Assembly (NCBI GenBank): GCA_903922465.1
Contig: CAIXTV010000113.1
Coordinates: 1-52,994, forward strand
Reading direction: 5' to 3'
DNA: 52,994 nt
DNA from: an uncultured bacterium
Lineage (GTDB): Bacteria > Bacteroidota > Bacteroidia > Bacteroidales > CAIXTV01
Shown here: positions 873-50,200 of the stretch, one piece after another
Numbering within the stretch: position 1 is the first letter of the stretch
How the letters are laid out: each line of letters opens with the position of its first letter
Notes under the pieces: model-generated
What the model saw: only the letters and a program-made list of their open reading frames with translations
Told to the model about the DNA's origin: nothing
The model's database searches: none
Translations under genes and position numbers: made by a program

Positions 873-2423
873 ATGGTTACAATTGGTTCGAACTACGCGA
901 CACTAGATGATATTTTTGATATACTTTTTGATAATGAATTAATTGAACTTCAAACCTCGGCCACTCAAAGAGTTAAAGACTCCTTCGATTTCCTTAAATC
1001 GTTTTGCGACGATAAATTGATTTATGGAATAAACACAGGTTTAGGTCCAATGGCTCAATACAAAATAGACGATTCGCAACGAAAACAACTACAATACAAT
1101 GCCATTCGCTCCCATTGCTCAGGTTGTGGCGAACCCCTCACTCCTATTTATGCAAAAGCTGCTGTTCTTTCGAGGCTTAACAATATGATTAAAGGCTATT
1201 CGGGTGTGCATCCCGAAGTGGTTGAATTGCTTAAAGAATTAGTAAATCAAGATGTGCTTCCCATCATTCCCGAACATGGTGGAGTAGGTGCTAGTGGTGA
1301 TTTAGTTCAATTGGCACATCTTGCATTAACTTTAATTGGTGAAGGTAAAGTAATTTATAAGAACGAAATTCAACCCACTGCTGATGTATTTAAAGAATTA
1401 GGCTTAAAGCCTATTGATGTTCACATCCGCGAAGGTCTTTCCCTCATAAATGGCACTTCGGTTATGACAGGTATTAGTTTGGTGAACCTCATTAAAGCTA
1501 AAAACCTACTCGATTGGAGTATCGTTGCATCAAGTATGCTTAACGAAATTGTTGAATCATATGACGATCACTTTTCCTACGAATTGAACAAGGTTAAATA
1601 TCATAAAGGTCAGGAAAACATTGCCGGATTTATGCGCACTATCTTAAACGATAGTCAACTCATCAGAAAACGGCACGAACATTTGTTCGATAAAAAAGTT
1701 GAAGATAAAATTCTAACCGATAAAGTGCAGGAATATTACTCACTACGCTGTGTGCCTCAAATATTAGGCCCTGTGATTGACACTCTTGCATACGCTGAAG
1801 ATGTAATTATCAACGAATTTAATTCCGTAAACGACAATCCTATAATCGATTTCGAAAATAATAATGTTTTTCATGGTGGTAATTTCCATGGCGACTATAT
1901 TTCTCTCGAAAATGACAAAATGAAGACAGCTATCACCAAACTTTCCATGCTAATGGAACGTCAGTTGAACTATATGATGAATAGTAAGCTCAACGATATA
2001 CTTCCTCCTTTCGTAAATTTGGGTGTGCTTGGGCTAAATTTTGGAATGCAAGGCGTTCAATTCACTGCTACTTCAACTGTTGCTGAAAATCAAACCCTTT
2101 CATTCCCTATGTATGTACATAGCATTTCATGTAATAATGACAATCAGGATATAGTAAGCATGGGAACCAATTCAGCTTTACTCACCCGCAAAGTTATCAG
2201 TAATACTTTCGATGTGATTGCCATAGAAATGATTACCATCATTCAAGCCATCGATTATTTGGGCATTCAATCGAAACTTTCGGCCTATACTTCGAATATT
2301 TACGAACGACTACGCGAAGTTGTTCCGGCTTTTAAAGAAGATACTACCAAGTCAGACGACATAAAAAGTATACGCAACTATATTGAAACCCATCGTTTGG
2401 ATTTAGATAAATCATTAGTATAA
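873..2423 (+). CDS. Aromatic amino acid ammonia-lyase (HAL/TAL family), likely tyrosine ammonia-lyase
   Basis: This enzyme of the MIO-dependent lyase family would deaminate an aromatic amino acid to the matching propenoate, such as p-coumarate from tyrosine. What is seen: catalytic Tyr51 in YGINTG, the MIO triad Ala140-Ser141-Gly142 in GGVGASGDL, the INGTS block and a complete 516-residue length. The substrate-selectivity pair is Ser80-His81, as in histidine lyases. From memory, the characterised Flavobacterium johnsoniae tyrosine ammonia-lyase also has SH there and shares long blocks with this protein, so the SH pair does not argue against tyrosine. It is the first gene of a seven-gene operon with fatty-acid-type enzymes, 5 bp before the reductase, and no histidine-utilisation genes lie nearby. 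This supports a starter-unit role rather than histidine catabolism. Family assignment is very sure; substrate less so. Confidence 0.93.
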   Translation: MVTIGSNYATLDDIFDILFDNELIELQTSATQRVKDSFDFLKSFCDDKLIYGINTGLGPMAQYKIDDSQRKQLQYNAIRSHCSGCGEPLTPIYAKAAVLSRLNNMIKGYSGVHPEVVELLKELVNQDVLPIIPEHGGVGASGDLVQLAHLALTLIGEGKVIYKNEIQPTADVFKELGLKPIDVHIREGLSLINGTSVMTGISLVNLIKAKNLLDWSIVASSMLNEIVESYDDHFSYELNKVKYHKGQENIAGFMRTILNDSQLIRKRHEHLFDKKVEDKILTDKVQEYYSLRCVPQILGPVIDTLAYAEDVIINEFNSVNDNPIIDFENNNVFHGGNFHGDYISLENDKMKTAITKLSMLMERQLNYMMNSKLNDILPPFVNLGVLGLNFGMQGVQFTATSTVAENQTLSFPMYVHSISCNNDNQDIVSMGTNSALLTRKVISNTFDVIAIEMITIIQAIDYLGIQSKLSAYTSNIYERLREVVPAFKEDTTKSDDIKSIRNYIETHRLDLDKSLV

Positions 2424-2428
2424 ATCAT

Positions 2429-3157
2429 ATGAAATATGCTTTAGTAACAGGAGGATCAAGAGGCATTGGCAGGGCCATAAGCCTTTCGCTTAGTAGGATG
2501 CAGTATCATGTTATCATCAATTATGTAAATAATGATGAAGAAGCAGCCATTACCCTCCAACAAATTGAATCGGAAGGAAATCAGGCTTCATTAATGAAGT
2601 TCGATGTAGCTAGCTTAGAACAGGTTGAAAGTGTTCTGGGTACATGGATGGAAGAAAATCCCGATAATTTGATTGAAGTCTTGGTGAATAATGCCGGAAT
2701 AAGAAAAGATGCTCTTTTGATGTGGATGAAAGACGAAGAATGGTTCGATGTAATGAACACCAATATGAATAGTTTCTTCTACATCACCCGTAAACTTATC
2801 AAAAACATGTTGGTAAACCGCTATGGACGCATCATTAACATAGTTTCCTTATCAGGAATAAAAGGTTTGCCCGGACAAGTAAACTATTCTGCAGCAAAAG
2901 CTGCTGTAATTGGTGCAACAAAAGCTTTGGCACAAGAAGTAGGGAAGAAAAATGTAACGGTAAACGCTGTAGCCCCTGGTTACATCAGAACCGACATGAC
3001 AAAAGATTTAGACGAAAAGGCACTCAAAGCCATGATACCTATGGATAGATTCGGCAAGCCCGAAGAAGTAAGCGAATTGGTTGCATTTTTAGCTTCCGAT
3101 AAGGCTTCTTATCTCACAGGAGAAGTGATTTCTGTAAATGGAGGGCTTTATACCTAA
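2429..3157 (+). CDS. 3-oxoacyl-ACP reductase-like SDR (FabG type)
   Basis: This 242-residue short-chain dehydrogenase would reduce the beta-keto group of an ACP-bound intermediate with NADPH. Visible signs are the Rossmann motif TGGSRGIG at residues 7-14, NNAG at 87-90, the catalytic Ser140, Tyr153 and Lys157 (NYSAAK), and a FabG-like tail with the SDR block near PGYIRTDM. Length matches FabG. Its stop codon overlaps the ketosynthase start by one base (TAATG), which suggests coupled translation. It is probably a dedicated copy for this pathway rather than the housekeeping fabG, because it sits between the ammonia-lyase and a pathway ketosynthase. Confidence 0.9.
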   Translation: MKYALVTGGSRGIGRAISLSLSRMQYHVIINYVNNDEEAAITLQQIESEGNQASLMKFDVASLEQVESVLGTWMEENPDNLIEVLVNNAGIRKDALLMWMKDEEWFDVMNTNMNSFFYITRKLIKNMLVNRYGRIINIVSLSGIKGLPGQVNYSAAKAAVIGATKALAQEVGKKNVTVNAVAPGYIRTDMTKDLDEKALKAMIPMDRFGKPEEVSELVAFLASDKASYLTGEVISVNGGLYT

Positions 3158-4377
3158 TGGGAAGACGGGTCGTAATCACCGGAACCGGAATCTATTCCTG
3201 TATTGGGAAAAACCTTGACGAAGTTAAGGACTCACTAATGCATGGGAAATCGGGTATCATCTTCGATCCAAAACGAAAAGACTTTGGCTATCGATCGGCA
3301 CTCACAGGTTACGTTGACCGTCCTAATTTAAAAGGTTTACTCGACCGCAGAATGCGCGTGGGTATCCCCGAACAGGGCGAATATGCCTATTTGGCTACAG
3401 TAGAAGCCCTCAAAAACGCAGGCATAGACGATAATTTTCTTGAAAACCAAGAAATCGGCATAATTTATGGCAACGACAGTTCCTCACAACCCACAATAGA
3501 AGCAGCTGACATCGCTAGAGAGAAAAAAGATAACCTAATGTTGGGTTCTGGATTCATTTTCCAATCGATGAATTCGACTGTTTCTATGAACTTATCAGTT
3601 ATTTTTAAACTAAAAGGCATTAATTTCACTGTAAGTGGAGCTTGTGCAAGCGGATCACACTCTCTTGGTTTAGGATATTTATTTATCAAGAACGGCCTTC
3701 AGGATTGTATCGTCTGCGGAGGGGCTCAAGAGCTAAACATCTTCTCTATGATGAGTTTCGATGCCCTTGGGGCTTTCTCATCTAAGGAAAATGAACCTAC
3801 TCATGCTTCAAAACCCTTCGACAAAGACCGCGATGGTCTTGTTCCAAGTGGTGGAGCAGCAACTTTAGTGTTAGAAGACTACGAATCAGCAGTAAAAAGA
3901 GGCGCAAATATCCTTGGCGAAATGGTTGGATACGGTTTTTCATCCAATGGCGACCATATTTCTCAATCAAATGTAAAAGGTTTAGTGCGATCAATGGATA
4001 GAGCACTCCACGAAGCTGGTTTAACAGTAAATCAAATCGATTATATTAATGCACATGCAACTTCTACTCCTAATGGAGATATGAATGAAGCACTCGCAAT
4101 TGATCAATTGTTTGGGAATGTCAAACCTTGGATAAGTTCAACCAAATCGATGACAGGCCATGAGTGTTGGATGGCAGGTGCAAGCGAAGTTGTCTACTCT
4201 TTATTGATGATGCAAAATAACTTTATCGCTCCAAACATAAACTTTGAACACCCCGACGAATATTCTGCCAAATTAAAGATTAATAACACAACAATCGACA
4301 CAAAAGTCAACACAATTCTCTCCAACTCCTTTGGATTCGGAGGCACAAATTCATCTATCATCATAAAAAAAATATAA
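3157..4377 (+). CDS. Beta-ketoacyl-ACP synthase (FabF/KAS II-like)
   Basis: This 406-residue ketosynthase would extend an ACP-bound acyl chain by decarboxylative Claisen condensation. The Cys-His-His set is complete: Cys163 in GACASGSH, His300 in NAHATSTPNGD and His335 in the block STKSMTGHECWMAG. The C-terminal glycine-rich block FGFGGTN is present. The WMAG version of the second His block differs from the usual FabF GHLLGAAG and recalls ketosynthases of aryl-polyene/flexirubin clusters (recollection). No chain-length-factor partner lies next to it. It starts on the last base of the reductase stop and is 13 bp before the carrier protein gene. Confidence 0.92.
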   Translation: MGRRVVITGTGIYSCIGKNLDEVKDSLMHGKSGIIFDPKRKDFGYRSALTGYVDRPNLKGLLDRRMRVGIPEQGEYAYLATVEALKNAGIDDNFLENQEIGIIYGNDSSSQPTIEAADIAREKKDNLMLGSGFIFQSMNSTVSMNLSVIFKLKGINFTVSGACASGSHSLGLGYLFIKNGLQDCIVCGGAQELNIFSMMSFDALGAFSSKENEPTHASKPFDKDRDGLVPSGGAATLVLEDYESAVKRGANILGEMVGYGFSSNGDHISQSNVKGLVRSMDRALHEAGLTVNQIDYINAHATSTPNGDMNEALAIDQLFGNVKPWISSTKSMTGHECWMAGASEVVYSLLMMQNNFIAPNINFEHPDEYSAKLKINNTTIDTKVNTILSNSFGFGGTNSSIIIKKI

Positions 4378-4390
4378 TATCATAAGCTAA

Positions 4391-4639
4391 ATGCATAAGG
4401 AAGAAATTATCGAAAAAATAAATGGCTTTTTAATTGAAGAATTTGAATTAGAACAAGACCAACTTCAACCAGAAGCTAATTTAAAATCATCTTTAGGTAT
4501 CGATAGCCTCGATTTTGTTGATATAATTGTAAGCATCGAGAAAACTTTTGGCTTTAAAGTAAAAGGCGAAGAACTGGCCCAAGTGAAAACCCTCGAAGAA
4601 TTTTACCAATATATCTACAATCGTTTAAACGTTAATTAA
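4391..4639 (+). CDS. Acyl carrier protein
   Basis: This 82-residue acidic carrier protein has the phosphopantetheine attachment Ser39 in GIDSLD, and the usual four-helix pattern. It would hold the growing chain for the ketosynthase, reductase and dehydratase next to it. A dedicated ACP inside a ketosynthase operon argues that the product is made by a separate type II system, not by general fatty acid synthesis. Its stop overlaps the acyltransferase start by one base. Confidence 0.95.
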   Translation: MHKEEIIEKINGFLIEEFELEQDQLQPEANLKSSLGIDSLDFVDIIVSIEKTFGFKVKGEELAQVKTLEEFYQYIYNRLNVN

Positions 4640-5547
4640 TGTCTGATTGGAAGGGTAAAACAAGAGGTAATTTATTAGGATACAAGATTTTTGTTCTTCT
4701 TCTGAAATACCTGCCTTTGTCTGTTGCTTATTTTACCCTTAGGTTTGTCGCCTTTTATTTTGTGCTCTTCTCTCCTACTGCCTTCAAATCGGTGTATAGT
4801 TATTTCAAAAACATCCGAAAATCGTCTGGACTAAAGGCTGTTTATCAAATTTATCAGAATTATTATGTCTTCGGGCAAACTTTGCTCGACCGCATGCTGA
4901 TGTTCAGTGGCTTAAAACATCCTTTTCTATATGAATATATTAATACCAATTCAATTGAAAAGACCATTAAGGATGGAGAAAGTGTCATTCTTATCGGTGC
5001 ACACATTGGCAATTGGGAAGTTGCCAATTATCTGATGAAAAATTTTCAGTGTAAGAAAATCAATGTGGTTTTTCTTGATGCAGAAAATCAAAAAATAAAA
5101 GATTATATTCTTAAAGTTCAAGGATTAAAGAAAATTGAGATTGAACTCAACCCCATCTTCCTGAAAGAGGACATGAGCCATATCTTCGAAATTCATAATG
5201 CTCTTAATAATCACGAAGTGGTATTCATTCAAGGTGATAGATACCTTGAAGGAGGGAAAACCATTTCTGCTGAATTCTTTGGACATCAGGCATTGTTTCC
5301 TTTAAGTACCTTCCAGTTGGCTGCAAGGTTTAATTATCCTGCTTATTGCATATTCGGCATGAAACATGACAAGTTTACATATCGTTTGTATGCGAGCGAA
5401 AACATTAGATTAAAGGCTATTGAACTAAATGCTAAGCCCCAACCCGGTCATATTTTAAGCCTTTATATTAAAGAGCTTGAGAAAATGCTAAACTTTTACC
5501 CCACTCAATGGTTTAATTACTTCAACTTCTGGCAAAACGTAAATTAA
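4639..5547 (+). CDS. LpxL/HtrB-type lysophospholipid acyltransferase
   Basis: This 302-residue protein belongs to the lipid A biosynthesis acyltransferase family, which moves an acyl chain from ACP to a lipid or sugar acceptor at the inner membrane. The HX4E motif is present at His122-Glu127 (AHIGNWE), and a hydrophobic N-terminal segment (about 14-46) could anchor it in the membrane. A QGDRY block near residue 200 fits the family. Because it is inside the ketosynthase-ACP operon, its donor is probably the pathway product on the local ACP. The acceptor cannot be told from sequence. One-base overlaps join it to the genes on both sides. Confidence 0.85.
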   Translation: MSDWKGKTRGNLLGYKIFVLLLKYLPLSVAYFTLRFVAFYFVLFSPTAFKSVYSYFKNIRKSSGLKAVYQIYQNYYVFGQTLLDRMLMFSGLKHPFLYEYINTNSIEKTIKDGESVILIGAHIGNWEVANYLMKNFQCKKINVVFLDAENQKIKDYILKVQGLKKIEIELNPIFLKEDMSHIFEIHNALNNHEVVFIQGDRYLEGGKTISAEFFGHQALFPLSTFQLAARFNYPAYCIFGMKHDKFTYRLYASENIRLKAIELNAKPQPGHILSLYIKELEKMLNFYPTQWFNYFNFWQNVN

Positions 5548-6908
5548 TGGCAAAACGTAAAGTATTATTTATATCTGCAAACCTGCACATAAAACCTTAT
5601 CCGGTTTATCCTCTTGGTATTTCCTATTTAATGACATATCTGGATAAACATCTCCCCGAAACTGACTTCAAAGTGTTTGACTTCAATCTCGGTGAGTTGA
5701 ATAACCTCACAACATTGCTTGAAGAATACCAACCTGACTTTATTGCGGTTTCATTAAGGAATATTGATGATATTGATTCGCAATCGAAAACCAGCTTTAT
5801 TGCAGGTTACGAAAACATCATGGTTACGATAAGGAAAAGCACAAAAAAAACAGTAATCATGGGAGGTTCGGGTTTCTCTATTTATCCTGAATTACTGTAT
5901 AAACAACTAAAACCTGACTTTGCCATTGCCGGCGAAGGCGAAGAAAGCCTTGTGCAGTTGATTCAATCCCTCGAACAAGGAAACGATTACAAGAATATAG
6001 AAGGATTGGTGTATGCCGAAAACGAAAAAGTGGTCATTAACATCCGAAAAGGATTTTTAAAAGACCTCGATCTCCACCTTTCCGACGATTTAATTAACTA
6101 TTACTGGGATCATTCAGGAATGTTAAACATTCAAACCAAAAGAGGTTGTCCCTATAAGTGTATTTATTGCACCTATCCTATCATTGAAGGCAGAAAAGTG
6201 CGTATGCTCAATGTTGACTTAGTGGTTGAAACCTTGGTAAGGTTTTATAAGGAAAAGAAAATTAACTATGTGTTCTTCACCGACTCTGTTTTTAATATGA
6301 ATAATGCCTATAATGTTGAATTGGCAGAAAAAATCATTAAGTCGGGAATAAAAATTCACTGGGGAGCCTATTTTTCTCCTCATAACCTAACACAAGACCT
6401 CTTACATCTGTTCAAAAGATCGGGTTTAAAGCATATTGAGTTTGGGACAGAAGCACTCTCAGACACCCAATTGATTAATTATGGCAAACATTTCACTGTT
6501 CAGGATGTAATAAATTGTTCAGATTATTGCAACAAGGCAGGCGTATACTTTGCACACTTTATGATATTAGGTGGATACGGTGAAACTGATGCTACACTAA
6601 CCGAAACCTTCGAAAATTCTAAACATATACATCATTCTGTTTTCTTTCCTTACATTGGAATGAGAATTTATCCCAATACACCATTACACACTATACTTCT
6701 AAAGGAAGGTAAGCTAAAAGCAGAAAACCCCTTGCTTGATCCTGAGTATTGCATCTCAGACCAATTTGATTTAAGCACCTTAAAAGCTAAAGCAAAAGCC
6801 AGCGGAAAGAATTGGATTTTCCCTGATGAAGATAAATCAGACATCATGGAGAAAATCAGACTTAAAAAACGCAAGGGCTTATTGTGGCATTTATTATTAG
6901 AACCATGA
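5547..6908 (+). CDS. B12-binding domain radical SAM enzyme
   Basis: This 453-residue protein has an N-terminal cobalamin-binding-type Rossmann domain (about 1-150, with YPLGISYLMTYL and the GGSGFS/GEGEESL blocks). A radical SAM core follows, with the 4Fe-4S motif at Cys201-Cys205-Cys208 (CPYKCIYC). The DxHxxG lower-ligand motif is not seen, which is common in class B enzymes. Members of this group methylate or rearrange unactivated carbons. Similar B12-radical SAM proteins sit in some lipid clusters such as the proposed ladderane loci and hopanoid methylation; the actual reaction here is unknown. It overlaps its upstream neighbour by one base and the next gene by ATGA, so it is an integral part of the operon. 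Confidence 0.88.
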   Translation: MAKRKVLFISANLHIKPYPVYPLGISYLMTYLDKHLPETDFKVFDFNLGELNNLTTLLEEYQPDFIAVSLRNIDDIDSQSKTSFIAGYENIMVTIRKSTKKTVIMGGSGFSIYPELLYKQLKPDFAIAGEGEESLVQLIQSLEQGNDYKNIEGLVYAENEKVVINIRKGFLKDLDLHLSDDLINYYWDHSGMLNIQTKRGCPYKCIYCTYPIIEGRKVRMLNVDLVVETLVRFYKEKKINYVFFTDSVFNMNNAYNVELAEKIIKSGIKIHWGAYFSPHNLTQDLLHLFKRSGLKHIEFGTEALSDTQLINYGKHFTVQDVINCSDYCNKAGVYFAHFMILGGYGETDATLTETFENSKHIHHSVFFPYIGMRIYPNTPLHTILLKEGKLKAENPLLDPEYCISDQFDLSTLKAKAKASGKNWIFPDEDKSDIMEKIRLKKRKGLLWHLLLEP

Positions 6909-7336
6909 AATCAAACCTAAATATAAGCAATCTGATTCCTCAAAGGCCGCCAATGGTGATGGTGGACGAAGTGTTAGAAGCAAGTGAAACAAAAATCATT
7001 AGTCGCTTCAACATTAGCCCAGAAAATGTGCTCTGCGAAGGGGATTTTTTAGGAGAAGCAGGTATAGTTGAGAACATAGCTCAAACATCTGCTGCAGGAG
7101 TAGGCCTTTCAATGGCAGAAAAAGACGAAAATGCCGAGCCACCTATTGGATTTATTGGAGCCTTGAAAAATCTTATGATTTATAAGTTACCTAAAGTAAA
7201 TTCAGCTATTCAAACCGAAGTAACATTGCTTCATAGAATAATGGATGCTTCTGTTATCGAAGGGAAAGTGTTTCAGGAAGGCAATCTCATTGCTGAATGT
7301 GAGATGAAAATCTTCCTTAAATCCACAAAAAAATAA
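6905..7336 (+). CDS. Hotdog-fold dehydratase-like protein (FabZ/ApeP-like)
   Basis: I place the start at the ATG at 6905, overlapping the radical SAM stop as ATGA; an in-frame start at 6884 would add seven residues inside the upstream gene. The 143-residue protein has the hotdog opening IPQRPPMVMVDEVLE and the central helix GIVENIAQTSAAGVG. It would dehydrate 3-hydroxyacyl-ACP or act as a thioesterase. The FabZ catalytic His (in GHFPG) is replaced by Asp47 (GDFLG), while the helix Glu56 is kept. The chemistry may therefore differ from FabZ, as in the dehydratase-like proteins of aryl-polyene clusters. It is the last gene of the first operon block. Confidence 0.8.
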   Translation: MKSNLNISNLIPQRPPMVMVDEVLEASETKIISRFNISPENVLCEGDFLGEAGIVENIAQTSAAGVGLSMAEKDENAEPPIGFIGALKNLMIYKLPKVNSAIQTEVTLLHRIMDASVIEGKVFQEGNLIAECEMKIFLKSTKK

Positions 7337-7647: not shown

Positions 7648-8079
7648 ATGACAGAAGAAAGTAAACCCAACATTAAAATAATAGATGCCGAAAAGATTGA
7701 AGTAGATTTGAATTTCGAGATTACCCATTATCAAATGGATGATAAAGGTAATTTTAGTCATGCTATGTTGAAGAATTGGGGCAGTAAAGAAATTGTGAAT
7801 AATCAGAGTTGGGAGATTGTGAAAGAGCGCATTGCAGAAGCTAAAGAAAAAGTAAGAACTGGGGAAATAAGTCCTATCGCATATTATATGGAAAAGTGTT
7901 TAACTGACATCGGAATGCTTTCAAAATATACAGGTTTTGCAAAGTGGAGGGTAAAAAGACACCTAAATCCACAACACTTTAAGTCATTAAAAGAAGAAAA
8001 TCTTCAAAAATATGCCGATTTCTTCCAAATAAGCATGCCCGAATTGAAAAACATTGACCATAATTCACAAGGGGCTTAA
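7648..8079 (+). CDS. Small protein with helix-turn-helix-like C-terminus, unknown function
   Basis: I do not recognise this 143-residue protein with certainty. The N-terminal 50 residues are acidic/polar. The middle is a charged helix (about 57-75). The C-terminal half, with LTDIGMLSKYTGFAKWRVKRHL and then a KYADFF..SMPEL segment, has the spacing of an XRE/Cro-type helix-turn-helix: helix, turn with Gly, recognition helix rich in Arg/Lys, and closing helices. A cluster-specific DNA-binding regulator is a reasonable inference. It has its own promoter-like element and sits between the enzyme operon and the BtrH-type genes. No signal peptide or membrane segment is seen. Confidence 0.6.
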   Translation: MTEESKPNIKIIDAEKIEVDLNFEITHYQMDDKGNFSHAMLKNWGSKEIVNNQSWEIVKERIAEAKEKVRTGEISPIAYYMEKCLTDIGMLSKYTGFAKWRVKRHLNPQHFKSLKEENLQKYADFFQISMPELKNIDHNSQGA

Positions 8080-8266: not shown

Positions 8267-9271
8267 ATGAAATTAGATTTCGACAATTCACAAATGTCAG
8301 CGCATTGCGAAAGTGGCGTTATTGTGAATATGCTTAAATATTACAATATTACCATCAACGAACCCATGGCTTTTGGAATTGGATCGGGCTTTTTCTTTGC
8401 CCATCTTCCCATGATGAAAGTTAATTATTCCCCGGTTACAAGTTTCCGCATTTTGCCGGGATTGTTGTTTAGCAGGGCTTGTAAGAACATGGGAATATCA
8501 TATGAAAACAAAACGTTTCGCGACCCTCAAAAATCAATGGACGAACTCGATAGAGTTTTGGAAACAGGCACTCCTGTTGGATTACAAGTAGGTGTATTTC
8601 AATTGCCCTATATCCCTCAAGAATATCGCATGCATTATAATATGCACAGCATGATCGTTATTGGAAAAGAAAACAATGAATATTTGATAGCTGACAGCGT
8701 AATACCGGGCGAATGCAGAATTTCTCACGAAGATTTAATGCGTGTTCGTTATGCAAAAGGCACTTTTGCACCTAAAGGGAAAATGTTTTATCCAACCAAA
8801 GTCCCTAATGAGATTGATTTTAAACAACCTGTCATCAACGGTATTAAAAAAGTGTGCCACGATATGCTAGATATTCCAATGCCAATAATTGGAGTGAAAG
8901 GTATTCGTTATTTTTCGAGAAGACTTAGAAAATGGCCTACAAAAAATGGAAATAAGATTGCATCGCAGTATTTAGGGCAAACGATATTGTCTTTGGAAGA
9001 AATAGGAACTGGCGGTGTTGGATACCGTTATATGTATGGAGCTTTCTTAAGTCAGGCTGCTGACTTGCTCGGAAGAGAGGAACTTAAAGAAATTTCAATT
9101 GAAATGGGAAATGCAGGTAATCGGTGGAGAGACTTTTCTTATATCGGTGCCAAAAACTGTAAAAATAGGTCGGAACCTGAACATACTTACGATGACATTG
9201 CAGACATTCTGATGGACATTGCTGATAAAGAAGAAAAAGTATTTAGAAAATTAAAAAAAATCAAGTTATAA
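8267..9271 (+). CDS. BtrH-type acyltransferase, copy 1
   Basis: This 334-residue protein resembles the butirosin BtrH family (BtrH N-terminal domain), papain-like acyltransferases that move an acyl group from a carrier protein to an acceptor. Candidate catalytic residues are Cys14 in SAHCESG, His127 in the block MHSMIVIG, and Asp143 in LIADS, in the order expected for a Cys-His-Asp triad. The C-terminal half (about 185-334) is helical, with GTGG and RWRDFSYIGAKNCKN blocks. No signal peptide is seen, so it acts in the cytoplasm. In a cluster with its own ACP it probably unloads the finished chain. It is 318 bp before a near-identical-length paralogue. Confidence 0.8.
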   Translation: MKLDFDNSQMSAHCESGVIVNMLKYYNITINEPMAFGIGSGFFFAHLPMMKVNYSPVTSFRILPGLLFSRACKNMGISYENKTFRDPQKSMDELDRVLETGTPVGLQVGVFQLPYIPQEYRMHYNMHSMIVIGKENNEYLIADSVIPGECRISHEDLMRVRYAKGTFAPKGKMFYPTKVPNEIDFKQPVINGIKKVCHDMLDIPMPIIGVKGIRYFSRRLRKWPTKNGNKIASQYLGQTILSLEEIGTGGVGYRYMYGAFLSQAADLLGREELKEISIEMGNAGNRWRDFSYIGAKNCKNRSEPEHTYDDIADILMDIADKEEKVFRKLKKIKL

Positions 9272-9589: not shown

Positions 9590-10594
9590 ATGAAATTAAA
9601 CTTCGACCATAAACAACTCTCAGCCCATTGTGAAAGCGGTGCCACAGTGAACCTACTCAGATACTACAATGTAGACATAAACGAACCAATGGCCTTCGGT
9701 ATTGGCGCAGGATACTTCTTTGCTCATCTTCCCATGGTAAAACTGAATTATTCGCCTGTGACAAGTTTTCGTGCATTGCCAGGCTTAGTATTTAGTAGAA
9801 CCTGCAAGAATATGGGGATTTCATACGAACGCCAAACTTTTCGTAATCCTCAAAAAGCAATGGATGAGTTGGATAGAGTTTTGGATACAGGCACCCCTGT
9901 TGGGGTGCAAGTTGGTGTTTTTCATCTGCCTTTCTTCCCTCAGGAATATCGCATGCATTATAATATGCACAATATGGTGGTTTTCGGGAAAGAAAACAAC
10001 GAATATCTGATTGCCGACAGTGTAATTCCGGGAGAGTGCCGCGTTTCATACGAAGACTTTAAGAAAGTACGTTATCCTAAAGGAGCTTTTGCACCCAACG
10101 GGAAAATGTATTACGTAACCAAGGTCCCCGATGAAATAGATTTTAGACAACCTGCCATAAAAGGTATTAAAAAAGTTTGCTACGAAATGCTCGACATCCC
10201 CTTCCCTATTATTGGCGTGAAAGGCATACGTTATTTCTCTAAAAAACTAAGGAAATGGCCTGTAAGCAAAGGTAATAAAGTGGCATCGCAATATCTTGGT
10301 CAGACGATATTATCGCTTGAGGAGATAGGAACAGGTGGAGCAGGTTACCGATTTATCTTTGGAGCCTTCTTAAATCAAGCAGCTGACCTGCTTAATCGTG
10401 AGGAACTAAAAGAAATTGCTGTTGAAATGGGCGAAGCAGGTAATCGTTGGAGAAACTTCTCCTATATGGGTGCCAAAAATTGCAAAAACCGCTCAGAACC
10501 TGAACATACTTACGATGACCTCGCTGACATCATTCTTGATTGTGCCAATAAGGAAGAAGCCATTTTCAAAAGATTGAAAAAAATTAAATTTTAA
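9590..10594 (+). CDS. BtrH-type acyltransferase, copy 2
   Basis: This is the second BtrH-family protein, also 334 residues, and it aligns to copy 1 without gaps; 46 of the first 60 residues are identical by hand count. Cys14, His127 and Asp143 are all conserved, so both copies look active. The differences are spread out, with fewer in the catalytic blocks. The ABC transporter ATPase starts on the base after its stop codon, so transfer and export may be coupled. Two copies could serve two acceptors or two chain lengths, or act as a heterodimer; the sequence does not decide this. Confidence 0.8.
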   Translation: MKLNFDHKQLSAHCESGATVNLLRYYNVDINEPMAFGIGAGYFFAHLPMVKLNYSPVTSFRALPGLVFSRTCKNMGISYERQTFRNPQKAMDELDRVLDTGTPVGVQVGVFHLPFFPQEYRMHYNMHNMVVFGKENNEYLIADSVIPGECRVSYEDFKKVRYPKGAFAPNGKMYYVTKVPDEIDFRQPAIKGIKKVCYEMLDIPFPIIGVKGIRYFSKKLRKWPVSKGNKVASQYLGQTILSLEEIGTGGAGYRFIFGAFLNQAADLLNREELKEIAVEMGEAGNRWRNFSYMGAKNCKNRSEPEHTYDDLADIILDCANKEEAIFKRLKKIKF

Positions 10595-11341
10595 ATGGAG
10601 CCCATCATACATATTGATGGTATCAGCAAAACCTATAAAGGGGCAGAAACTCCTGCTGTAGATGATATTACGCTGAAAATATACCCCAACGAATTTTTTG
10701 GGCTGTTAGGACCTAATGGAGCCGGAAAAACCACCACCATTTCGATGATGTGTGGATATATTCGTTCGGGAAAAGGAAAAATTACGATAGATGGGAAAGA
10801 TATTTCCCAACATCTTTCAGATATTAAGCAAATTATTGGTATTGTTCCTCAGGACATTGCCCTCTACCCCTCTTTAAGTGCACGCGAAAACCTCACATTC
10901 TTCGGAAATATTTTCGGGATGAAAGGAAAAGTTCTCAAAAACAGAATTGACGAATGTCTCGAAAAATTCGGATTGACGGCAAATGCCAACAAAAAGATTT
11001 CAAGCTATTCGGGTGGGATGAAAAGACGTGTTAACCTTATTGCCGGCATCATTCATCAACCAAAAATATTGTTTCTGGATGAGCCCACAGTGGGAATTGA
11101 CGTGCAGTCACGTAGTATTATCAATGAAATACTCGCTGAACTCAACAAAAAAGAAACTACCATCATTTACACTTCTCATCATTTGGACGAAGCCGAAAAA
11201 ATGTGTTCTACTGTGGCCGTAATCGACTACGGGAAGATCATTGCTCAAGGTTCGCCGGCTGATTTAGTTAGCCGCTACGATAAGTGCGAGACTTTAGAAG
11301 ACGTCTTTCTTAAACTAACAGGCCGAAAACTCCGCGATTAA
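10595..11341 (+). CDS. ABC transporter ATP-binding protein (ABC-2 exporter type)
   Basis: This 248-residue nucleotide-binding subunit has Walker A GPNGAGKTT (39-47), Q-loop Gln86, signature SYSGGMKRR (137-145), Walker B ILFLDEP (158-164) and the switch His in TSHH. The closest pattern is the CcmA/DrrA-type ATPase that powers ABC-2 exporters. It directly abuts the second BtrH-type gene and is 12 bp before its permease. It most likely exports the cluster product or moves it to the outer leaflet of the inner membrane. Confidence 0.93.
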   Translation: MEPIIHIDGISKTYKGAETPAVDDITLKIYPNEFFGLLGPNGAGKTTTISMMCGYIRSGKGKITIDGKDISQHLSDIKQIIGIVPQDIALYPSLSARENLTFFGNIFGMKGKVLKNRIDECLEKFGLTANANKKISSYSGGMKRRVNLIAGIIHQPKILFLDEPTVGIDVQSRSIINEILAELNKKETTIIYTSHHLDEAEKMCSTVAVIDYGKIIAQGSPADLVSRYDKCETLEDVFLKLTGRKLRD

Positions 11342-11353
11342 ACCCAGAACATC

Positions 11354-12637
11354 ATGCTAAAATTTACAGCATCTATTTATAAAGAATTTCTTGTACTGAT
11401 AAGGGATATCGGAGGGCTCATCGTCTTATTTTTGATGCCCGTTAGTATGATTTTCATCATCACTTTGGTGCAAGATTCCACTTTTAGAAGTATTAAGGAG
11501 TTAGAAATTCCCCTCTTAATGGTCAATCTTGATCACGACACCATGGGTAATGTGCTTGAAAGGGGCCTCATTGAATCGGATTTCTTCAACATCGACCACA
11601 AAATGAATGATAAGGATGCCGACGAGGCAAGTTTGAAGCAAGCTGTGGCCGACGGTGATTATCAGATTGGGATTGTGATACCCGAAGGGATTACCGATTC
11701 GGTGCGCAAAAACAGTATGTATCGAATTACTCAGGTGCTTGGTGAAATGGGCATGCCAAAGGATGATTCTATTCCGGTTAAGGGTGTGGTGACGGTTCGA
11801 ATGTATTTCGACCCTGTCATCAAAAAATCATTAAAGAATGCGGCCATGGCAACGGTTGAGAACATCATCAATCGCGTGGAGCAAAAATTTCTTAATAAAA
11901 CCATGACAGCCGCTTTGTCGGAATTTCCTCCCGAAAAAGACCTGCCCGATCTTATCGACACCCCCACTGTTACCGTAATTTCTAATTATGCATCGAAAGG
12001 GCAGTACGACTTCGTCCCAAATTCAACTCAACATAATGTGCCTGCATGGACTATGTTTGCGATGTTTTTCATTGTAATCCCTATGTCAATCAGCATGATA
12101 AAAGAAAGGGAAGACGGAAGTTTGTTCCGCTTACTCACCATGCCGGGTTCCTATTTCACCATCATTTCGGGCAAAGTTGTCATCTATTTGATGGTCTGCA
12201 TCATCCAATTTATCCTTATGTTGGCAGTTGGAATCAATCTTTTTCCCCTTTTGGGCCTACCTAAACTCATTTTGGGCAGCAACATAATGGCTTTGAGCAT
12301 GGTGGTCATCTCGGCAGCCTTTGCCGCCATTGGTTACGGCATAATGATAGGCTCAATTTTCAAGACCTATCAACAAGCAACCTCATTTGGTTCGGTTTCT
12401 GTTATCATTTTAGCCGCTTTAGGAGGGGTTTGGGTCCCGGTTTATCTGATGCCTAACCTCATGCGCACCATTTCGAGCTTTTCTCCACTAAATTGGGGTT
12501 TAAATGCCTTCTACAACATCTTTATGCGTTCGGCAAGTCTTGGCGATGTAATGACTGATTGCCTGAAAATGCTGGCATTCTTCGTCGTCTGCCTTGCAAT
12601 TGGAGTAGGAATGTTTAAAATTCGTAAGGAAAAATAA
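11354..12637 (+). CDS. ABC-2 type transporter permease
   Basis: This 427-residue membrane protein has one N-terminal transmembrane helix (about 20-42), a large non-membrane domain (about 45-225) and five more helices in the C-terminal 190 residues. This is the layout of ABC-2 permeases of the YhhJ/YbhR kind. It includes the motif IKEREDGSLFRLLTMPGS after the second helix, typical of the family. It is the partner of the ATPase just upstream and the last gene of the cluster on this strand. Substrates of this class range from drugs to lipids, so assignment to the cluster product rests on position. Confidence 0.9.
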   Translation: MLKFTASIYKEFLVLIRDIGGLIVLFLMPVSMIFIITLVQDSTFRSIKELEIPLLMVNLDHDTMGNVLERGLIESDFFNIDHKMNDKDADEASLKQAVADGDYQIGIVIPEGITDSVRKNSMYRITQVLGEMGMPKDDSIPVKGVVTVRMYFDPVIKKSLKNAAMATVENIINRVEQKFLNKTMTAALSEFPPEKDLPDLIDTPTVTVISNYASKGQYDFVPNSTQHNVPAWTMFAMFFIVIPMSISMIKEREDGSLFRLLTMPGSYFTIISGKVVIYLMVCIIQFILMLAVGINLFPLLGLPKLILGSNIMALSMVVISAAFAAIGYGIMIGSIFKTYQQATSFGSVSVIILAALGGVWVPVYLMPNLMRTISSFSPLNWGLNAFYNIFMRSASLGDVMTDCLKMLAFFVVCLAIGVGMFKIRKEK

Positions 12638-44231: not shown

Positions 44232-47200
44232 TTAATGAAAATAAACATCTTTGATTGCCTTAGCAGAACAATGGGTAGTAGGATCCGTCTCAAATACTGT
44301 AATCGTCCATGAATTGGGTGCTCCACATGGATTAACAAATTGATCGCTGATACAATTAACAGAGGTATGAATAATTTGACCAAACCCAGTCCACGAATAC
44401 AAATGACCTGTTACTAATGGAGTGCAATATTCTACTGTTTCACCAAATGCAATAATATTTCCATCATTTGGGCTACCTGTAATTACTGGTGATGGGGCAG
44501 CTTTAACAGTTACATTATACACAGTAGCTGAAACAGCAGTACATCCGTATGTGTTGGCATAATTTACACTAACTGTTTGAGCTCCGTCATTATTCCAGGT
44601 AACTGTAATTGCATTTGTTCCAGCTCCAGCTGTAATAGTTCCTCCACTTACATTCCAAACATAATTAGATTTACCGGCTTCTGTAGTGTAAACATTTCCA
44701 GTAGTAAAATTACATAATGAAGTAGGACCACTTACAGTTGGAACAGGTAAAGGATTTACTGTAACTGTCCAAGTGCCTGTAGATACTTCTAGAGTTGTGT
44801 TGCAGGTATTATCCTTTGCATATCGCTGATAAGAAGTAGTAATTACTAAAGGACCCGCAGGAGTATAAGTAGATTCTGTTGCTCCACTTATTGCTGTAGT
44901 ATAAGCATCAGACGAAGATCTCCATGAATATGTAATCGGATTAACTCCTCCACTTGCTAGGGTTGTATTTGCTATTTGTGTGCTTGGAGTCGTATTGTAA
45001 CAAATAGTTTCGCCTGTTGAAGCTATAGCTCCTGATGTAAAGTTATCACGAACTGTTACTGTCCAAGTTCCGACAGATACTTCAGGTGTTGTGTTGCAGG
45101 TATTATCCTTTGCATAACGCTTATAGGAAGTAGTTGTTGTTAATGGGCCGGCAGGAGTGTAAGTAGCTAGTGTTGCACCACTAATTGCCGTAGCATAACT
45201 ATCAGCCGAAGATCTCCATGAATACGAAATTGAATTATCTCCTCCACTTGCTAGAGTTGAATTCCCTATTTCTGTACTTGGGCTCGTATTATAACAGATA
45301 GTTTCGCCTGTTGTAGTTATTGCTCCTGAAGCGAAAGCACTATAAACTGTCATAGTTATAGGTGTTGTATAACTTGAGTAACAAATATTAGTTCCACTGC
45401 CATTTGTCGAAACCGTTCTTCTCTGATAAGAAGTGCTTGCTGTTAGTGTTGGTGGTTGGTAGGTTGCAGCTGTTGCTGAACCAATGTTAACATAGCTTCC
45501 ACTTGCGTTAGTTTGCCATTCATACGATATAGTTTCGGAGCCTGTGCCTGCTGTGGCTGATGTTAAAGCAACAGGTGCTGTATTGTTACAAATAGTTTGG
45601 GCTGTTGCAATCGTTCCTGCAGTTACTACAGATTGAACAGTTACTAAAGCGTAGCCTCCGGGCATAGCACTACAAACTCCACTTTGCACCACTGCCCTGT
45701 AAATAGTTTGAGTGGTAAGATTGGTTGCGGTATATGCGGTATTAGTGTTGCTAATGTCATACCAATTAGAGCCTCCATTAATGGTGTATTGCCATTTAAC
45801 AACAGTTCCTGTATGGCCGCTAAGTGTCAATAAGGTGCTATTTGTGCCGTTGCATACAGTGGCACTACCCGATACATTGCCGCCGTTTGAAGCCGGATTT
45901 ACTGTTACATTATATACTGTAGCAGAAGCTGCTGTGCAACTGTTACCATTCGTATAATTAACACTAATGCTTTTAACTCCCGAAGTATCCCATCTAACGG
46001 TAGCAGCATTTGTTGTACCTCCTGCTGTAATAGTTCCTCCGACAATGCTCCAACTATATCCTGTCATGCTAGATTCTGTTGTATAAACATTTCCTGTTGA
46101 ATTAATACAAGCTGATGTATTTCCACTAATTGTTGGTACAGGCAATGAATTTACAGTTACATTCTTTACTGTTGCTGAAGCAGCAGTACAACCTTTAACA
46201 TTAGTATAATTAACACTAATGCTTTTAGCTCCTGAAGCAGTCCAGGTTACAGTTACTGAATTAGTAGTACTATCTGCTGTAATTGTCCCTCCGGTTACAC
46301 TCCAAGTATATCCTGTCATTCCTGATTCAGTAGTATAAACATTTCCTGTTGAGTTAAAACATACAGATGTAGAGCCGGTAATAGTTGGTACAGGTAAGGC
46401 TTTAACAGTAACTCCATGCGTGGCTGATGTAGTTGAACATGCTGTTGTAGTTCCATCTGTAACAGTATATGTAATATTGGCATTGCCTGCTCCTACAGGT
46501 GTTACTAATCCAGTATTACCTACTGTTGCAACGCTTGTATCAGAAGAATTCCAAACATAAGTTAAGGTTGCAGTTCCTGTTGCATTTGAAGTTAATTGTA
46601 AAGAATTTCCCATACAAACTGAATCTCCTCCTGTAATAGCCCCGGCAACCGGCAAAGGGTTTACTGTAAATACATCCGATACTGAACTTGTTTGAGTAGT
46701 TCCGCAACCTCCACTTACTTTACAATAATAATAAAGAGTTCCGGTTGAAGTTGCCAAAGGTATGTAACTACTTGAATCAACACCTACAGTAGTTCCTCCT
46801 GTTGTATCAGCGCTTACATTTTTATACCATTGATAACTCAATCCTGTTCCAATAGCGGTTACAGTAATAGGAACAAAAGTTCCATTTAAACATTTTGTTT
46901 GTGAAGCTGTAGATTGGCTGCCTATTCTAGTAATAGCATTTGTAACAAACGCTCCCGATATAACACTTGTTGCTATGCCGCAAGTTCCTGTTACTTTACA
47001 ATAATAATATCTGGTCCCGGCAGTATCAGCTAAAGGTGTATAGCTATTTGAGTTTGTCCCTCCTGTAGTATCAGCAGTTGTGTTTTTGCACCATTGAAAA
47101 TTCAATCCATCTCCGGTAGCCGTAACACTTATTGCAGCGAATGTTCCGTTTAAGCATTGTGTGTTTCCGGCTGTTGATTGACCAGTAATGGACGGGGCGG

Positions 47201-50200
47201 TACATACAACGTATTCCCAGGCACCCATTGCAGGTATAGTTAAGCTTCTGCTTGCTGAATCGTAATCTGTAGTAATACCGGTACCGGTAACACCTGCTAA
47301 ACTTAATGAAGAAGGTAGATAATTAGCAGCTAGTGTGCCTCCGGCACTTGCAAAGCCCGGATTGACGTTTTTACTGTGTGTATCGCCTCCGGATGGAATT
47401 GCCCAGTCTGATAAAGATGTTTTGTCTGTCCCTGAAAATACACCTAGCACACCATTAGGTGCATAATAATCATTATTATCAATAGTTAGAGTTGTATTAT
47501 CAGTTATTGATACAGCATAATGCTTTCCGGTAGTTCCGCCTGAGCGGGAATTGCTAAAGATGTTATTCTTGTACACCCTTGTACTAGAAGCACTATTTGA
47601 AAGTGCATAGGTATTTCCGGTTACACCTGTAGCTGTACCTTCTATATCTACTGTATTGTAGTAAAGATTGGTATTAGCTCCGGTTGGACTTAATTTTATA
47701 CCATAAATAGCACTCCCTGTTGAAATTCCATTGCCTAAGCTAATAATGTTATTGGAGTAGGTTGTGGTGCCGCCTGCTATATTAATACCATACAAACTTG
47801 CACTTGCCGATGTGTCAGACAAGCCATAAATAAAATTACTTGAAACGATATTAGTACCTGTTGTAGCACCCGTATAATAAAGCCCGATTACACCTCCTGC
47901 AAAAGAAGAATATGTATTTGATAAATTATAAATAGTATTGCCAGATAAAGTTTGCCCGGCAGTTGGACTGCTTTGGCTAATACCTATTACCGATGCTGTA
48001 TTAGTTGCCGAAGTGTTAGCATTAGCAATAGTTAAATCCCTTACAATATTGTTCCTAATAGTATTTGCACCAGTTGTTGATGTGGAAATTCCAATAATCT
48101 GACCAATAGTACCGACCGTAGTATTGGTTGTAGCATTTGCTAAATTTGCAACTGTATTTCCATTTATGACAGGTGTGACTCCTGCACAGGATATCCCATA
48201 AACAGACTGAGCACTGCTTGTAGATGTTGAACTGGCATTGATACTACCATTTACAGTAGTGCTTCCTATAATATTATTGCTGATATTTAAAGCTCCTGAG
48301 AAGGGGTTTGTAATTATTCCATAAAAGCTATGAGATGCAGTGGCTGAACCTATGGTAGTAATCGCGCAAATTGTATTATTTTGGATGGATACTGCTCCTC
48401 CTCCTCCTGCATTATTAATTCCATAGGTTGTTGCATTTGTACCTGAGCTATTAAGCGAGATAGGGCTTGCAACAGAACCTATTACATTTCCTGTTGAAGT
48501 TCCTATATTTGCACTGCCGCTACTTATATAAATTCCATTACAAGGGCCGCTCGATGTAGTCGTGTATGAAATACCCTGAATGGTATTGTTTTGAACAGAA
48601 CTGGCTGTTGTAGTACCAACACTCAGGTATATTCCATAAAACGCATGTGCGAAAGCAGCACTTACTGTCCAGATTCCTGTATGGTTGGAAGCTGTACCCC
48701 CGATGAAGTTATCTGAAATGTTGAAATTATTCCCCATTGAATTGCTAACCTTAATAAAACTATAGTAATAGGCTCCGCTTGGAACAACAGGGCTTGTTTC
48801 GTATAAACTATTACCCGTGATTGACCAATCTGAAGAGTAGTTTGAAATAAAAATCCCATTGGAGGATGCACCATTATTAAAGAAATCATAAATATTGCAA
48901 TTCGAAATTGTATCATATTTGTTTACATATCCTGACAGCCCTAATGAATAAATTGCCTGGTAAGGTCTGTTTGCATCCGATGTAATGTCGCAATTGTCAA
49001 TTCTGTTTCCAGTGTTGCCATTGCCTGCCGTTGCGGTAGAAAAAAGAATAATTCCGCTTGCTGTACTCAATACAGAAGCTTTGACGGTACAATATTTCAC
49101 TTTATTGTTTTCGGCCGTATTGATAAACCTGATGGCCGAAATAGCCAATAAATTGTTTGCAGTTACGGATGTATTCACAATATTCAAATCTTTCAAACCT
49201 GTTTGGTTCACCCTTCCATCAATGGTTACATTATCCGCTCCATCCAAATCAATAAGTGGTGCTGAAAGATTACCACTAATACTTAAACCTGTTGCTGTTG
49301 GGTAGATGTTTACAGAGGTGTAATCTGTAGACCCTGATAAGGAGGCATTCAATACGGCTGATTCAGTTTCCGAGGTACTGCCATTGATCTTGATCGTAAT
49401 GTCGCCGTTGTGCAAGCCCGAATTTATCCAATCAAACGCCTCTTTGAGGGTGTTGTACCCTCCTTCGGGGGTTCCCTCTGTAGCAATTACCTCCACAGGT
49501 GGAGGAGGAGCGTATTCAAATTCATGCGCACCAATATCAGGAGTGCTAACATTTCTTACTGCATTATCATAATCATTGGTAACTGCTATCGGTGCGGTAA
49601 CCGGTGTGCCGGCATCATCCAATAAAGTAGCTACAGTAGTTTTAACATGCAAATCAAAAGGTGTTGTTGCCACATTTTCGAAAGCCACATTTTCAGTAAC
49701 CGAAGCTTGGTCACGGGTAATCATTCTACTTTTAAAGTCGGTTAGGGTTTGGTCTGCATTGGTGCCATCCCAAAAAATCAGGTTGGTGGCCGACGGTGTG
49801 CCCGCGTAAAAAGAGTTGTTGTTTGAGGTGGTTGCGTATTTGGTTAGAGTAGAATTACTCCTCCAGTAAGCGACGGTTTTACCGGTAGCACCCGGCGTGG
49901 AATTGTTGACTACAATATTATTACGTAAATCAAGGGTGTAATCACTATGCGAATAGATACCTGCGGATCCAAACGCTGAAACCGTGCCGGTTGCATTCAG
50001 ATAAATCGTGTTGTACCAGGCTCCGATGTAAGCATTATAGGAACTGGAATAATCAGTTGCCATGATTCCTGCTACAGCAGGTTGTGTGGAAGTAGCATTA
50101 GGTGCTTTTATATCGCTGATAAAATTATTGTACACATAAACAGTATTCACGGAGTAAAGATATATTCCTGTCGCGCTGCCGTCACCGGTTGAGGTCAGGT

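Follow-up and report, generated by a model that had tools for sequence, protein, structure and literature searches.

The gene at positions 5547-6908 of the analysed stretch of DNA (52,994 nucleotides from an uncultured member of the Bacteroidales, hereafter the window) probably encodes a cobalamin-dependent enzyme which C-methylates the 4-hydroxyphenyl head group in a flexirubin-type pigment and is used in place of the methyltransferase FlxJ. What we see is most likely a known pigment pathway in which a cobalamin-dependent enzyme takes the place of the usual methyltransferase, the decoration being ordinary and the enzyme unrelated. The new observation is the exchange of the two genes, the B12-binding radical SAM (rSAM) gene and the FlxJ gene. 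It offers the first concrete and cheaply testable function for the family TIGR04072, for which our literature search found no demonstrated function: methylation of the phenol ring of a coloured pigment whose pathway is well studied. It also predicts that, in the pigments of many uncultured Bacteroidales, the ring is methylated by a different enzyme.

The rSAM gene is an intact ORF on the forward strand, which starts with ATG and encodes 453 amino acids. The product contains an N-terminal B12-binding Rossmann domain (residues 18-138; PF02310, 38.4 bits) and a radical SAM domain (residues 197-356; PF04055, 65.1 bits) with a CxxxCxxC motif, and is thereby a cobalamin-dependent radical SAM protein; the motif cysteines (C201, C205 and C208) are invariant in 95 of 95 flexirubin-type sequences. 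Family membership was judged by the curated NCBIfam model. The protein matches TIGR04072 (rSAM_ladder_B12, ‘lipid biosynthesis B12-binding/radical SAM protein’) over its full length (profile positions 1-442 of 443) with 413.5 bits, above the curated cut-off of 360 bits. The second-best NCBIfam family is BzaD (TIGR04385; 180 bits, under the cut-off of 450), and lower scores were obtained for BchE (103.7 bits), HpnJ (81.2 bits) and HpnR (TIGR04367; 70.6 bits, cut-off 650); based on these scores, identity with a hopanoid methylase was rejected. In the tree, the flexirubin rSAMs group together in a single clade with strong support; TIGR04072-like paralogues adjoin it, and the 41 other B12-rSAM rows fall outside. 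A tight grouping with a known non-lipid subfamily, which the sequence-only reading had named as the observation that would speak against it, was not seen: the protein groups with TIGR04072, far from HpnR and HpnJ.

Table 1. Features of the flexirubin operon in the window, with the profile matches on which the names are based
Feature	Coordinates	Strand	Basis
FlxA flexirubin tyrosine ammonia-lyase, source of the 4-coumarate starter	873..2423	+	NF053541 equivalog, 842.6 bits vs cut-off 700
FlxB SDR ketoreductase	2429..3157	+	NF053542 equivalog, 401 bits vs cut-off 340
beta-ketoacyl-ACP synthase	3157..4377	+	PF00109/PF02801; position conserved in flexirubin operons, 60-75% identity
Acyl carrier protein	4391..4639	+	PF00550; DSL motif in sequence
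LpxL/HtrB-like acyltransferase	4639..5547	+	PF03279
B12-binding radical SAM enzyme (TIGR04072), putative C-methylase of the aryl head group	5547..6908	+	PF02310, PF04055, TIGR04072; FlxJ swap; TsrM-like fold, R71
FabZ-like hotdog dehydratase	6905..7336	+	Weak FabZ matches, 31.8 bits; likely start ATG 6905
DarG family protein	7648..8079	+	NF053536, 124 bits vs cut-off 70
DarH BtrH-related acyltransferase, copy 1	8267..9271	+	NF053550, 403.7 bits vs cut-off 300
DarH BtrH-related acyltransferase, copy 2 (tandem)	9590..10594	+	NF053550, 404.4 bits
ABC transporter ATPase	10595..11341	+	PF00005
ABC-2 type permease	11354..12637	+	PF12698

The operon in which the gene lies is a flexirubin operon (Table 1). 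It contains the FlxA and FlxB equivalogs, a ketosynthase (KS), an acyl carrier protein (ACP), a dehydratase and DarG/DarH, with NF053541, NF053542, NF053536 and NF053550 all over their cut-offs; the flexirubin-specific DarG model NF053545 stays under its own (127.9 vs 170 bits). The two tandem DarH copies, both over the cut-off, have 334 amino acids each, and two DarG/DarH pairs are also found in several related loci. Elsewhere in the window, a very long, repeat-rich ORF on the reverse strand (44232-52994, 2920 amino acids) runs off the contig end and resembles a surface protein. The sequence-only reading had the rSAM gene overlapping both neighbours, coupled to a ketosynthase-ACP operon and supplied with an aryl starter. 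FlxA bears out the aryl starter, and both overlaps are present. The acyltransferase stop codon TAA (5545-5547) shares 1 bp with the rSAM ATG (5547-5549), as TAATG. The mechanically called FabZ-like ORF begins at GTG 6884, giving an overlap of 25 bp; an in-frame ATG at 6905 meets the rSAM TGA as ATGA, so that the overlap is probably one of 4 bp. The coupling holds in the sense that all these genes share one operon; the overlapped neighbours are the acyltransferase and FabZ-like genes, and the ketosynthase and ACP genes lie further upstream.

The exchange with FlxJ was found in a sample of 247 genomes of the order, with FlxA as the anchor. In the flanks of the FlxA-positive loci, the slot after the acyltransferase holds either a TIGR04072 rSAM or a class I SAM methyltransferase of about 360 amino acids, which belongs to the FlxJ family (NF053543; some members score slightly below the cut-off). 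The acyltransferase is followed directly by FlxJ in 15 loci and by the rSAM in nine, plus one fusion in the same set of flanks. Looking at whole genomes, the 46 FlxA-positive ones comprise 17 with the rSAM, 26 with FlxJ, three with neither and none with both. The absence of double positives compares with 9.6 expected (hypergeometric P = 6.5e-10, a value which ignores shared ancestry). Across all 247 genomes the rSAM is found in 22 and FlxJ in 34, again with an overlap of 0.

The clearest case of exchange is within a single family (f156). Genome G494 (locus L152) has the gene order KS-ACP-AT-rSAM-DarA-DarB-DH-DarG-DarH and genome G592 (locus L163) has KS-ACP-AT-FlxJ-DarA-DarB-DH-DarG-DarH, AT being the acyltransferase; the two loci are collinear, their flanking proteins are 50-69% identical and the sole difference is rSAM or FlxJ. 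Both states likewise occur in family f128, whose loci are more diverged and split. Parsimony on the FlxA tree requires a minimum of eight changes between rSAM and FlxJ, or three when the count is limited to strongly supported branches. The exclusive exchange is thus not the effect of one lineage. FlxJ also varies in position: three loci (L094, L099 and L113) have it between KS and ACP, and several genomes carry it on a different contig. In L100, L103, L104 and L111, DarA-DarB stand between the acyltransferase and the FabZ-like gene, and FlxJ is on a separate contig. The state may further be linked with the richness of a genome in rSAM-like candidates (median 16 vs 10 per genome, P 3e-4), a relation which is suggestive only, with loose counts and the phylogeny uncorrected.

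Concerning the wider distribution, contigs from one genome per species were scanned with the family alignment, and the 80 best loci, nearly all labelled as uncultured Bacteroidota, were compared; they partly share genomes with the order sample, and the two counts are not independent. A FabZ-like gene is next to the rSAM in 72 of the 80 loci and the acyltransferase is directly before it in 57. Acyltransferase and rSAM are fused in one ORF in eight (two of which are near-identical contigs of one MAG), and no FlxJ was found in the DNA around the 80 rSAM loci. The linkage of the rSAM to the operon is far beyond chance, and the earlier proposal that the gene acts in the same pathway as its neighbours is strongly supported. 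Fusion ORFs are seen in L098 (9011-11287) and in L195, L208, L215, L226, L227, L230, L235 and L236; judging by their length, L098 and L230 are probably one contig. In the phylum-wide sample only the window genome passes the TIGR04072 cut-off. FlxJ is present in eight of the 33 FlxA-positive genomes of that sample and neither enzyme in 24, which makes ring decoration an optional feature of the phylum; nearly every sampled FlxA-positive member of the window’s order has one enzyme or the other.

The predicted structure of the window rSAM (AlphaFold, pLDDT 83.8) is closest to that of the tryptophan C2-methyltransferase TsrM (Z 29.3 over 433 residues, 2.8 Å), followed by OxsB (Z 25). TsrM is also the best PDB match by profile (7.8e-35). 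Arg69 of TsrM is located at the lower face of the cobalamin, where it is considered to assist nucleophilic methyl transfer (PMC8992657). It aligns with R71 of the window rSAM (residues counted by hand). All of the 95 flexirubin-type sequences have this Arg, as do the TIGR04072-like paralogues; no equivalent Arg was seen in the other aligned B12-rSAM proteins. Glu273 of TsrM, in the motif DSEFN, is replaced by Val, Ile or Leu in the flexirubin rSAMs (DS[V/I/L]FN; V248 in the window rSAM), which thus lack this feature of a TsrM-type non-radical methylase. The residues which are invariant in the clade and different in the paralogues include Y88, Y186, W187, Y241, Y275, H296, E298 and H337, and judging from the alignment they may line a pocket for an aromatic substrate and provide a base.

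We infer the reaction of the rSAM, its position, its timing and its mechanism as follows. The enzyme would methylate the 4-hydroxyphenyl head group of an aryl polyene of the flexirubin type once, the carbon ortho to the phenol OH being the most likely site, and would thus stand in for the unrelated class I SAM methyltransferase FlxJ of related clusters. SAM would methylate cob(I)alamin to methylcobalamin, from which an electron-rich ring carbon would then accept the methyl group. The correspondence of R71 with TsrM Arg69 points to a polar transfer as in TsrM; with the cluster-blocking Glu273 absent, a radical route would also be possible. The substrate is probably ACP-bound, or handled jointly with the fused or adjacent acyltransferase. 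In the flexirubin of Chitinophaga pinensis, the ring methyl is derived from methionine and takes the place of one ring hydrogen, and no substitution other than ortho to the OH has yet been seen in flexirubins (PMC3992019). The head groups of aryl polyenes can carry a methyl group as well; in E. coli, the SAM methyltransferase ApeB is held responsible for it (PMC8253772).

That the rSAM does the same job as FlxJ is the simplest reading of its repeated replacement of FlxJ and of its nearest characterised relatives, which methylate aromatic rings. The closest named solved relative of FlxJ is SibL (4.6e-25), which we take to be an aromatic C-methyltransferase of the sibiromycin pathway. A literature search on FlxJ returned nothing relevant, and one on flexirubin together with radical SAM returned no papers. 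FlxJ would be a ring methyltransferase as the methyltransferase of a ring-methylated pigment, and head-group methylation by the rSAM is therefore reached in two steps, the reaction of FlxJ being itself deduced. Some observations point the other way. FlxJ is not universal in the phylum and not always in the acyltransferase slot, both enzymes could serve some other optional tailoring, and the name of TIGR04072 points to ladderane and a proposed cyclisation. Of the chemistry suggested by the sequence-only reading, methylation stands as the likely reaction given the replacement of FlxJ; a modified polyene or cyclised chain beyond standard flexirubin chemistry is not supported, the simplest product being the known ring-methylated head group.

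It is unlikely, though worth weighing, that the rSAM acts on the polyene chain or elsewhere on the pigment, by methylation or some other modification, so that its exclusion of FlxJ reflects lineages making different pigments. FlxJ is optional in the phylum, hence tailoring varies, and the rSAM and FlxJ states are clustered on the FlxA tree, both of which would be expected here. However, different pigments fit poorly with a collinear swap of one gene inside one family, with three to eight switches on the tree without any double-positive genome, and with the action of the nearest characterised relatives on aromatic sp2 carbons.

We regard it as very improbable that the rSAM cyclises the polyene, be it as a ladderane-type enzyme or by forming C-C bonds in another way. 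The idea draws on the name of TIGR04072, given for ladderane gene clusters, on Kuste2803, a B12-rSAM of the Kuenenia lipid clusters proposed as a candidate for cyclisation (PMC2649909), and on a 2026 preprint which counts ‘ladderane synthase’ among the non-methylase B12-rSAM enzymes and cites the Kuenenia work among others (PMC13142503). The score of BchE, a cyclase, is in line with it. An ordinary methyltransferase as the replacement cannot supply a cyclase function, however; the closest fold and profile are those of a methylase, TsrM, and the literature search found no cyclisation assay for the family. On the assumption that Kuste2803 is the namesake of TIGR04072, a bolder and rather unlikely extension may be considered: that every member of the group, marked by the invariant Arg at the cobalamin face, is a polar methylase of electron-rich sp2 carbons like TsrM. 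The enzyme of the ladderane clusters would then be a methylase as well and not the long-sought one that forms the cyclobutane rings, and the flexirubin branch would add a second natural example of B12-rSAM methylation by a nonradical route, one without the cluster-blocking Glu. The cyclase idea would lose its footing if so, which is a possibility and not a result. A hopanoid-type methylase, or an unrelated housekeeping B12-rSAM with no part in the work of the operon, is hardly credible: HpnR is indeed a lipid-acting B12-rSAM with some similarity (70.6 bits), but the TIGR04072 score, the same operon neighbour in 72 of 80 loci, the several fusions and the single strongly supported clade stand against it.

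Head-group methylation remains the preferred reading. The other polyene genes of the pathway are found on two more contigs of the window genome, C9 and C247, whose genes were named by similarity and inspection. C9 contains thioesterase-like and ketosynthase-like genes, which are 45-58% identical to flexirubin-cluster genes, and C247 contains ketosynthases as well as polysaccharide-deacetylase-like, LolA-like and dehydratase-like genes. FlxJ was not found in this genome at E 1e-60. No DarB exceeds the cut-off in the draft, which is 97% complete (best match 54.9 bits, cut-off 550), and the final pigment may therefore be no true flexirubin; the aryl polyene may be joined to a partner different from dialkylresorcinol, or DarB may lie in an assembly gap. 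The genome also has a second TIGR04072-like gene (contig C73, L121 4431-5855; 305 bits, under the cut-off). It has R71-N72 like the flexirubin rSAMs, and was rejected as a duplicate: it stands alone without a lipid operon, and the residues that mark the flexirubin clade are absent from it. Such paralogues under the cut-off occur in several other genomes of the order too. A weaker match from the phylum (L122) is likewise outside such a lipid operon.

Comparing the window with known systems, the C. pinensis cluster (flxA-flxY, darA/darB) shares with it FlxA, FlxB, KS, ACP, a dehydratase and the aryl starter; its ring methyl is methionine-derived, and the part of the study drawn on here (PMC3992019) does not mention a B12-rSAM for it. 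The window pathway differs in that its genes are spread across three contigs or more and DarB was not found in its genome. With respect to TIGR04072, the family name refers to ladderane lipid clusters, whereas the window member is in a flexirubin operon with a tyrosine ammonia-lyase. BzaD is also a B12-rSAM and is assigned to methylation of an aromatic ring, as the methyltransferase of benzimidazole ligand synthesis (PMC8123684); it belongs to a different pathway, that of the anaerobic B12 lower ligand, and the window rSAM scores far under its cut-off. TsrM (PDB 6WTE/6WTF) is about 19% identical to the window rSAM and both have CxxxCxxC. Its Glu273 coordinates the unique iron and keeps SAM off the cluster, whereas the window rSAM is without this Glu; its substrate is tryptophan, whereas a phenol-headed polyene is expected for the window rSAM. 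FlxJ has an unrelated fold (Dimerisation2-like and Methyltransf_2) and uses neither cobalamin nor an Fe-S cluster, yet it occupies the same operon slot in the same pathway, excludes the rSAM across genomes and is proposed to carry out the same reaction.
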